The position numbers and the translations under genes are program-made. Below, piece after piece: positions 14,113 through 27,910 of a DNA stretch of 42,677 nt. The DNA comes from an uncultured Bacteroidota bacterium (GTDB taxonomy: Bacteria; Bacteroidota; Bacteroidia; Flavobacteriales; TMED113): contig CACAKI010000006.1 of the NCBI GenBank assembly GCA_902533035.1, positions 1-42,677 of the forward strand, given 5' to 3'. The notes below the pieces were generated by a model, which was given only the letters and a program-made list of their open reading frames with translations, ran no database searches and had not been told where the DNA came from. Position 1 is the stretch's first letter. Each line of letters starts with the position of its first letter.

Positions 14113-15174
14113 TTATGTAATTAAATATTCATCTAAATATTTTGAAATTGGTTTAGGAAAAGGGTATTGTGAAACCTCTTTAAAAGGGACTTTTAGTAAA
14201 ATACTTGATTTTTTTTCCTTTAATTTTGATGTAGTTATTTTCCAGAAAAATAAATTCAAATTTTGGTGTGATAATTTATGTTGTGTTTTTTTTATCAAAA
14301 CAAAGTCTTTTAATTTAAAATCTTTAAATAAAGATGCTAGGGATTGTATAATGAGTTTATGCCTTATTCCTTCATTTGTTTCTATCATAGGAAGTTCATA
14401 TAAATTTTTCCAAATATCATTTTGCAATCTTTTTTTTATATATAAATTTTGTTTACATGATATAATCAAATAATTTAAATTTCTTGTTTTTTTTGTTGTG
14501 TTTTTTTTTAATTTAACAGGTCTAGATTGTATGTTTTGAATTTTAAATGATTGACACATATTTTTAATAGGGCAAACATCACATTTTGGGTTTTTTATAG
14601 TGCAGTGAATTGATCCAAAATCCATTAAAGCTTGGTTATAATCTCCAATATTTTTTTTGGGTAATAACTTAAACGTTATTTTATGAATTTTTTTTTTCCC
14701 TCTAGATTGATTTATAGGATCAGAAATATTAAAAACTCTGCTTATTACTCTAAAAACATTACCATCTAGAACTGCTTTTTTTTCATTTTTGCAAATTGAA
14801 CTAATAGCTGATGCAGTATATTCACCAATTCCTTTTAGTTTTATAAGTTCATCATAATTATTTGGGAAGGTTTTGTTTTGTTTAACTAATAATTTTGCAT
14901 TGTTTAACATATTGATAGCTCTTGAATAATAACCAAGACCTTCCCATGTTTTCAAAACATTAGATTCTGTGGATTTTGAAAGTGATTTTAAATTCGGAAA
15001 TGTTTTAATAAAATTTAAATAATAATTTGTTCCTTGTGATATTTGTGTTTGTTGAAGGATTATTTCAGAGACCCATATTTTATAGGGCTCTTTTGTCTTT
15101 CTCCATGGTAAATTGCGTTTATTTTTTTTATACCAATGTAATATTAATTGGCTGAACATTTCATTATTTGTCAT
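14113..15174 (-). CDS. mutY: A/G-specific adenine glycosylase
   Basis: 353 aa; PYKIWVSEIILQQTQ, HhH LKGIGEYTASAI, FeS CTIKNPKCDVCPIKNMC. Confidence 0.95.
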   Translation of the reverse strand: MTNNEMFSQLILHWYKKNKRNLPWRKTKEPYKIWVSEIILQQTQISQGTNYYLNFIKTFPNLKSLSKSTESNVLKTWEGLGYYSRAINMLNNAKLLVKQNKTFPNNYDELIKLKGIGEYTASAISSICKNEKKAVLDGNVFRVISRVFNISDPINQSRGKKKIHKITFKLLPKKNIGDYNQALMDFGSIHCTIKNPKCDVCPIKNMCQSFKIQNIQSRPVKLKKNTTKKTRNLNYLIISCKQNLYIKKRLQNDIWKNLYELPMIETNEGIRHKLIIQSLASLFKDFKLKDFVLIKKTQHKLSHQNLNLFFWKITTSKLKEKKSSILLKVPFKEVSQYPFPKPISKYLDEYLIT

Positions 15175-15203: not shown

Positions 15204-15211
15204 TATATTTG
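15204..15211 (+). promoter_or_regulatory. Putative -7 element (TATATTTG) for the HU gene
   Basis: Exact TAnnTTTG about 20 bp before the HU start; nearest TTG is 24 bp upstream, longer than usual. Confidence 0.45.
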
Positions 15212-15231: not shown

Positions 15232-15519
15232 TTGACAAAATTAGAATTAGTAAAACAAATTTCTCAAAGGACGGGTATAGAGAGGCAGGATGTAGTTGCT
15301 GTTTTAGAATCGATGATGATTAATGTACAAGATTCTGTTGCTAATGGAGAAACAATTTACTTGAGAGGTTTTGGGAGTTTTGGACCTAAAAGAAAAGCGC
15401 AAAAAACAGCAAGAAATATTTCGAATAATACAACTATAATTATTCCGGAACATATAGCGCCATCTTTTAAGGCCTCAAAATCATTTATTCAAAAAGTTAT
15501 GCAAAAAAATAGTAAATAA
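15232..15519 (+). CDS. HU-family DNA-binding protein
   Basis: 95 aa, TTG start; MTKLELVKQISQRTGIERQDV ... YLRGFGSFGPKRKAQKTARN. Confidence 0.95.
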   Translation: MTKLELVKQISQRTGIERQDVVAVLESMMINVQDSVANGETIYLRGFGSFGPKRKAQKTARNISNNTTIIIPEHIAPSFKASKSFIQKVMQKNSK

Positions 15520-15532
15520 AAGTATTAGATAT

Positions 15533-15625
15533 ATGCCTAGTGGCTCAAAAAGAAAAAGACATAAGATTTCTACTCATAAACGAAAAAAACGTTTAAGAAA
15601 GAATAGACATAAAAAAAAGAAGTAA
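15533..15625 (+). CDS. 30-aa highly basic small protein, candidate ribosomal protein of bS22/mS38 (AURKAIP1/COX24) type
   Basis: Not in the ORF track. ATG to TAA gives MPSGSKRKRHKISTHKRKKRLRKNRHKKKK. Lies between HU and rng; pattern resembles mycobacterial bS22 and the mS38 C-terminus as I recall them. Confidence 0.75.
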   Translation: MPSGSKRKRHKISTHKRKKRLRKNRHKKKK

Positions 15626-15670: not shown

Positions 15671-17227
15671 GTGGCTAGTGAATTAATAGTTAGAAATAAC
15701 AGAGATAATATAGATGTTGCTTTATTGAAGAGTGGAAGGTTAGTAGAATTGCATAAAATACTACCTGAAAACAGTTTTTCAATAGGTGATATATATTTGG
15801 GTGAAGTTAAAAAAACCTCACCTCAGTTGAATGCAGCTTTTGTGAATGTTGGCTATGAAAAAGATGGATTTCTGCATTATCATGACTTAGGTCCTCAGTA
15901 TAATACTTTTTCGAATTTTGTAAAACAGACTATGTCTGCTAAGACTTCAAAATGGTCTCTTAATAATATAAAAACTTTTCCAAATTTAAATAAAGATGGC
16001 CTTATTGATGATGTTCTTAAAAAGAAGGAACATATACTTGTCCAGGTTTCTAAGGAGCCAATTTCCACCAAAGGCCCCAGAATAGTTAGTGAGATCTCAT
16101 TAGCTGGAAGATATGTGGTATTATTACCATTTTCTAATAGGATTTCGATATCACAAAAAATTAAATCTCAGGGAGAAAAAGATAGATTAAAGAAACTAAT
16201 CAAAAGTATTATTCCTAAAAATTTTGGAATGATAGTGAGAACAGTGGCTGAGGGTAAAAAAGTAGCAGAGTTAGATGCAGACCTTAGAGCTTTAATTAAT
16301 CAATGGAAAATAGTACATACTAAATTACGAAATGCTGAAACGGGAGCTAAAATATTTGGTGGTATTAGTAAACTATCCTCAATTTTAAGAGATATTTTGA
16401 ATGATTCTTTTAATAAGATAATAGTTGATGATACAGATTTATATAATGAGTTAAAATTATATTTACAAGATAACATTCCCTCAAAAGAAAAAATACTTTC
16501 TAAGTATAGTGGCTCACAGCCTATTTTTGATAGATTTCATATAGAAAAACAAATAAAAAGTTCATTTGGAAAAACAGTTTCTATGAAAAAGGGGTCCTAT
16601 TTAATTATAGAACATACTGAAGCTATGCATGTGATAGATGTTAATAGTGGAAATAGATATGTAAAAGAAACTTCCCAGGAAGAAAATGCTTTTCAAGTTA
16701 ATTTACAGGCAGCGGAAGAAATAGCACGACAACTTAGGTTAAGAGATATGGGAGGTATTATAGCTGTTGATTTTATTGATATGAATCTTGCTGCTAATAG
16801 AAAAAAATTAACAGATTCTTTAGTAGATTTTATGAAAGAAGATAGGGCAAAACATAAAATTTTACCTCCAAGTAGATTTGGAATTATTGAAATTACTAGG
16901 CAGAGAGTGAGGCCTGTTATGCAAATCCAGACAGATGAAAAAATGGATTATAAATATATTGAAGCTCCTATATTGATTATTGATGAGATAAAAGAAAAAT
17001 ATGAAATGTTAGCCTCCAAAAGAAATAAGTTATCTAAAAAAGGGATACATTATATTACTTTATGTGCTCATCCATTTGTTATCACGTATTTAAAGGCTGG
17101 CTTTCCTTCAATTAGAACTAAATGGTATTTTCAATATAAATTAAGGTTACATTTAAGGCCTAACAATTCCTATAAATTCTTACAATATACTTTCTTTGAC
17201 CCATCAAATAATACAATTACGTTTTAG
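15671..17227 (+). CDS. rng: Ribonuclease E/G family protein (RNase G)
   Basis: 518 aa, GTG start; S1-like IGDIYLGEVKKTSPQLNAAFVNVGYEKDGFLH; GGIIAVDFIDM; IIEITRQRVRP. Confidence 0.95.
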   Translation: MASELIVRNNRDNIDVALLKSGRLVELHKILPENSFSIGDIYLGEVKKTSPQLNAAFVNVGYEKDGFLHYHDLGPQYNTFSNFVKQTMSAKTSKWSLNNIKTFPNLNKDGLIDDVLKKKEHILVQVSKEPISTKGPRIVSEISLAGRYVVLLPFSNRISISQKIKSQGEKDRLKKLIKSIIPKNFGMIVRTVAEGKKVAELDADLRALINQWKIVHTKLRNAETGAKIFGGISKLSSILRDILNDSFNKIIVDDTDLYNELKLYLQDNIPSKEKILSKYSGSQPIFDRFHIEKQIKSSFGKTVSMKKGSYLIIEHTEAMHVIDVNSGNRYVKETSQEENAFQVNLQAAEEIARQLRLRDMGGIIAVDFIDMNLAANRKKLTDSLVDFMKEDRAKHKILPPSRFGIIEITRQRVRPVMQIQTDEKMDYKYIEAPILIIDEIKEKYEMLASKRNKLSKKGIHYITLCAHPFVITYLKAGFPSIRTKWYFQYKLRLHLRPNNSYKFLQYTFFDPSNNTITF

Positions 17228-27837: not shown

Positions 27838-27910
27838 TGTCCGATGGTGTAACTGGCAACACGTCTGGTTTTGGTCCAGAAGAGTCTAGGTTCGAGCCCT
27901 AGTCGGACAA
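27838..27910 (+). tRNA. tRNA-Gln (anticodon TTG)
   Basis: Cloverleaf: acceptor TGTCCGA/TCGGACA, D stem GTGT/ACAC, anticodon arm TCTGG-TTTTGGT-CCAGA, T arm CTAGG-TTCGAGC-CCTAG; CCA not encoded. Confidence 0.95.

Follow-up and report, generated by a model that had tools for sequence, protein, structure and literature searches.

Ribosomal protein bS22 of Flavobacterium johnsoniae, Borrelia and Mycobacterium occupies a single pocket of the 30S subunit, formed by helices h2, h27, h44 and h45 of the 16S rRNA, and contacts helix H68 of the 23S rRNA (PMC10618245). The bS22 of Cutibacterium acnes binds at the same site, where a new inter-subunit bridge was proposed, and as a free peptide it inhibits translation and growth (PMC10085706). 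The Borrelia gene was unannotated until density for its product was seen on the ribosome, and the protein went undetected by mass spectrometry of purified ribosomes (PMC10618245). The mitochondrial protein mS38 (AURKAIP1/COX24) is found in an analogous pocket (PMC10618245). Statements made here on the F. johnsoniae structure are based on PDB names and on PMC10618245. The 30-residue sequence of 7jil chain 5 has been deposited both as "30S ribosomal protein S22" and as "50S ribosomal protein L38"; bL38 is a different protein from bS22 (PMC10618245), and the double naming among the PDB deposits is a naming mix-up.

We analysed a 42,677-nucleotide contig (the window) of an uncultured member of the Flavobacteriales (Bacteroidota), whose genome is a 1.02-Mb draft that is 83% complete. 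A 30-codon ORF with an ATG start and a TAA stop lies between a gene for an HU-family DNA-binding protein and rng, which codes for a ribonuclease of the RNase E/G family (Table 1). The coordinates, sequence, start and stop codons and place between HU and rng given in a preliminary description, made from the DNA letters alone, were all exact. The product (MPSGSKRKRHKISTHKRKKRLRKNRHKKKK) is more than half Lys/Arg (17 of 30 residues), with an MPxGxKRK start and a THKRKK core. An identical peptide is encoded by the uncultured Flavobacteriales MAG SP39 (PBCX01000005.1).

Table 1. Features of the bS22 neighbourhood in the window.
Feature	Position	Strand	Basis and remarks
mutY, divergent neighbour bounding the unit	14113..15174	-	TIGR01084, 293 bits (cut-off 286.5)
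TATATTTG, TAnnTTTG motif, candidate promoter of the HU-bS22-rng unit	15204..15211	+	putative function, from the motif
HU-family DNA-binding protein, TTG start, 13-nt gap to bS22	15232..15519	+	PF00216, E 5.5e-24; adjacency kept in relatives
bS22, small-subunit ribosomal protein gene	15533..15625	+	ORF; PDB matches; conservation; synonymous bias
rng, RNase E/G family, GTG start, 45 nt past the bS22 stop	15671..17227	+	PF10150, E 1.7e-94; TIGR00757, 407 bits (cut-off 326)

A search of PDB sequences with the window peptide hit three distinct chains and no others, and each alignment began at residue 1. The match to 7jil_5 ("S22", F. johnsoniae) had an E-value of 1.4e-9 (6.4e-16 with the family profile), that to 9i5v_10 ("AURKAIP1/COX24 domain-containing protein") 2.9e-9 (1.3e-14) and that to 8fmw_V ("bS22", Borrelia) 2.1e-6 (1.8e-11). 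The F. johnsoniae protein (7jil chain 5; same sequence in 9oz9, 9ozn, 9ozz and 9p0e) is also 30 residues long and aligns end-to-end with 25/30 identical residues and five substitutions (S5K, I12V, S13A, L21A and K23A). One relative within the order encodes the 7jil sequence exactly. The bS22 of Borrelia burgdorferi (8fmw chain V) is alike in length class and motif and has 22/28 identical residues, but its gene starts with GUG and it carries Leu-Lys where the Bacteroidota form has R9-H10. No model fired in Pfam and NCBIfam scans of the window peptide.

Judged by sequence, the window protein is an ordinary bS22 orthologue, a member of a family that is already known and has a solved structure. 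The bS22 assignment proposed in the preliminary description is upheld by the full-length matches to solved bS22 chains, by conservation throughout the phylum and by purifying selection. The same description had raised the prospect of a ribosomal component missed by annotation; the gene is indeed an unannotated bS22, but the protein is not an undiscovered one, since it has been modelled in the F. johnsoniae ribosome. Minimum-length ORF filters drop bS22 because it is only 30 residues long, and the Pfam and NCBIfam models used here miss this near-universal, lineage-specific ribosomal protein. Its inclusion sets right the inventory of ribosomal proteins for Bacteroidota genomes and adds no new kind of component. 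Taken as a whole, the observations are almost certainly best explained by a bS22 gene whose product would serve as an rRNA clamp in the 30S pocket and would be expressed within an HU-bS22-rng unit.

Going by the published structures of its relatives, the window bS22 would sit as a short basic helix within the 30S pocket of h2, h27, h44 and h45, near the decoding region and the neck, and would touch 23S helix H68 upon subunit joining. As a clamp on rRNA it may stabilise the base of h44 and add an inter-subunit contact. That it would work like mS38/eL41 is supported by published structures.

The origin of this likeness was addressed by sequence and profile comparison. The bS22 of Mycobacterium and Cutibacterium (DUF1713) is likewise highly basic, has about 30 residues and shares the 30S pocket (PMC10618245, PMC10085706), but its sequence likeness to the window protein is weak and the Bacteroidota form lacks its KHRKLL hydrophobic pattern. 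For mitochondrial mS38 the register is readable by eye; it is, however, a far longer protein, and its profile match to the window bS22 was not significant. Profile comparison with actinobacterial bS22 and mammalian mS38, for which the letters were checked against the PDB chains, gave a probability of 10.6% in a sensible register. Column-shuffled controls reached the observed score in 7/60 cases for actinobacterial bS22, 16/60 for mS38 and 1/60 for both together. The comparison is thus not clearly above shuffled columns, and we therefore make no claim that the window protein and mS38 are homologous in sequence. Common ancestry of the window bS22, mS38 and actinobacterial bS22 (the "universal uS22" proposal), as opposed to convergent basic helices, is nevertheless the origin towards which we lean. 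It is favoured by the binding site shared among the published structures (PMC10618245, PMC10085706) and by pairwise comparisons in which few shuffles reached the score of Msm bS22 (40/2000; ungapped, full-length) or human mS38 (12/2000; local alignment). For C. acnes bS22, the score was reached by 279/2000 shuffles. The Pfam model COX24_C (PF08213) was also touched below threshold by 3/27 relatives (best E 0.17). Against common ancestry stand the shuffle ties, the low profile probability and the fact that COX24_C gave no hit at E 10 anywhere in the window genome, where nothing reached the Pfam curated cut-off of 23 bits. The preliminary description had likened the peptide to mS38/COX24 and to mycobacterial bS22 and had suggested a profile comparison with the AURKAIP1/COX24 domain; the likeness holds in position and structure (PMC10618245, PMC10085706), but at the level of sequence, with between 1 and 16 of 60 shuffles reaching the score, the data point only faintly to homology. 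The "universal uS22" reading concerns origin and is compatible with a bS22 gene coding for a 30S rRNA clamp.

The neighbourhood of bS22 was surveyed with every locus oriented to the bS22 strand, counting rng up to 1.3 kb downstream and HU up to 1.5 kb upstream. HU lay upstream and rng downstream of bS22 in 18/18 loci of the order and in 11/11 loci from the rest of the class (29/29). In the other classes of the phylum, rng was near bS22 in none of 19 loci and HU in 3/19. The link between bS22 and rng drawn in the preliminary description therefore stands for the window's class, but not for the other classes sampled. The mutY neighbour upstream is also kept in many relatives. The fixed place of bS22 in an HU-bS22-ribonuclease cluster appears to have been little discussed, and this conserved operon appears to be the only new angle of the locus. 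In several other lineages of the Bacteroidia, HU and bS22 are separated by an additional gene of roughly 260-280 codons, with a hydrophobic stretch at the N-terminus of its product. The window HU gene apparently starts with TTG, as it does in three relatives of the family, and bS22 has the only ATG start within the three-gene unit.

Every one of the 18 loci of the order has a TAnnTTTG motif, which we take to be a Bacteroidota-type -7 promoter element, in the 110 nt that precede HU; in 17 of them its position relative to the HU start is between -27 and -61. A sigma-70 scan performed no better than chance, and a search for a terminator found none. The conserved -7 motif upstream of HU suggests that HU, bS22 and rng are carried on one transcript, so that the unit would be expressed from a single promoter upstream of HU.

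The conserved HU/rng neighbourhood leads to a testable idea on 16S maturation. The bS22 site is near those parts of 16S rRNA that adjoin its 5' and 3' ends (h2 and h45), and the RNase E/G, probably co-expressed, would trim the precursor ends, so docking of bS22 could time trimming. This link between docking and 16S trimming is speculation. In its full form, in which the HU-bS22-rng cluster of the Bacteroidia is a functional unit, bS22 docking marks or times the final trimming of 16S precursor ends by RNase E/G, and the HU-bS22 pairing (seen also in Latescibacterota and Cloacimonadota) couples the supply of nucleoid protein and ribosomes, we consider the proposal improbable. Less probable still is a main role with the operon partners, in which bS22 would regulate RNase E/G or HU, or serve one of them as a cofactor, and bind the ribosome only secondarily. 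The presence of both HU and rng beside bS22 at every one of the 29 loci sampled in the class would fit such a role, as would the inhibition of translation and growth by free C. acnes peptide (PMC10085706), but bS22 is kept in other classes where rng is not nearby (0/19 loci) and HU seldom is (3/19), and solved ribosome structures include it as a modelled component. We very much doubt this role and retain the reading of bS22 as a component of the 30S subunit.

The 5 kb around bS22 contain 32 ORFs of at least 25 residues, so ORF length alone is uninformative and conservation decides gene status. Compared with a same-genus relative, bS22 showed four nucleotide differences, all of them (4/4) synonymous. 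Compared with 16 further genomes of the order, there were 10-32 nucleotide differences and only 1-6 amino-acid changes, against a mean of 7-19 amino-acid changes expected for the same comparisons from random substitution under a simple AT-biased model. Among 27 sequences, 19/30 positions were invariant. An Rfam scan found no known RNA family over the bS22 region, its only hit being a tRNA at 27838-27910. Conservation, together with the pattern of substitution, identifies the ORF as a real gene, evidently under strong purifying selection. A chance ORF, Lys-rich by accident, in the AT- and A-rich DNA that separates HU from rng is a vanishingly improbable reading, because the frequency of short ORFs around bS22 and the ease with which Lys arises from A-rich DNA are outweighed by its presence in 374/389 genomes, its synonymous-biased changes and its full-length match to solved ribosomal chains; on these sequence comparisons, conservation has already refuted it.

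bS22 was intact in 18 of the 21 genomes searched, including 9/9 near-complete relatives, and over the phylum it was present in 374 of the 389 near-complete genomes sampled. The window bS22 therefore belongs to a near-universal, single-copy family under purifying selection. Both signs of a genuine gene that the preliminary description had looked to, conservation of the ORF across Bacteroidota and mostly synonymous codon changes, were borne out, and the similar MPSGKKRKRHK... peptides that it mentioned for other Bacteroidota are real and were found in relatives. No bS22 was found, profile search included, in any of the seven genomes of one family (f44) or in five near-complete genomes of one genus (g104); at least one other member of g104 retains a diverged copy. 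These absences are not random and look like losses of a ribosomal protein in particular lineages. With no detectable copy in either group, bS22 is therefore dispensable for at least some ribosomes of the phylum. The three other absences were single genomes inside bS22-bearing groups and are likely assembly gaps.

A degenerate DNA pattern used to search genome contigs required a fixed residue set, so its list shows presence and not prevalence. Outside the Bacteroidota, a search by phylum found bS22 in 40/42 genomes of the phylum that contains a Latescibacterota MAG, and HU also directly precedes bS22 in loci labelled Latescibacterota and Cloacimonadota. An occurrence in Gemmatimonadota, put forward from a single MAG labelled "Gemmatimonadetes", was rejected, as the phylum search on this MAG also returned a Latescibacterota genome; its label at NCBI is probably outdated. 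In six Latescibacterota-like MAGs, this one among them, HU has a TTG start and runs 32 nt into the bS22 ORF, in a different frame, before it stops (6/6), a shared overlap that suggests translational coupling.
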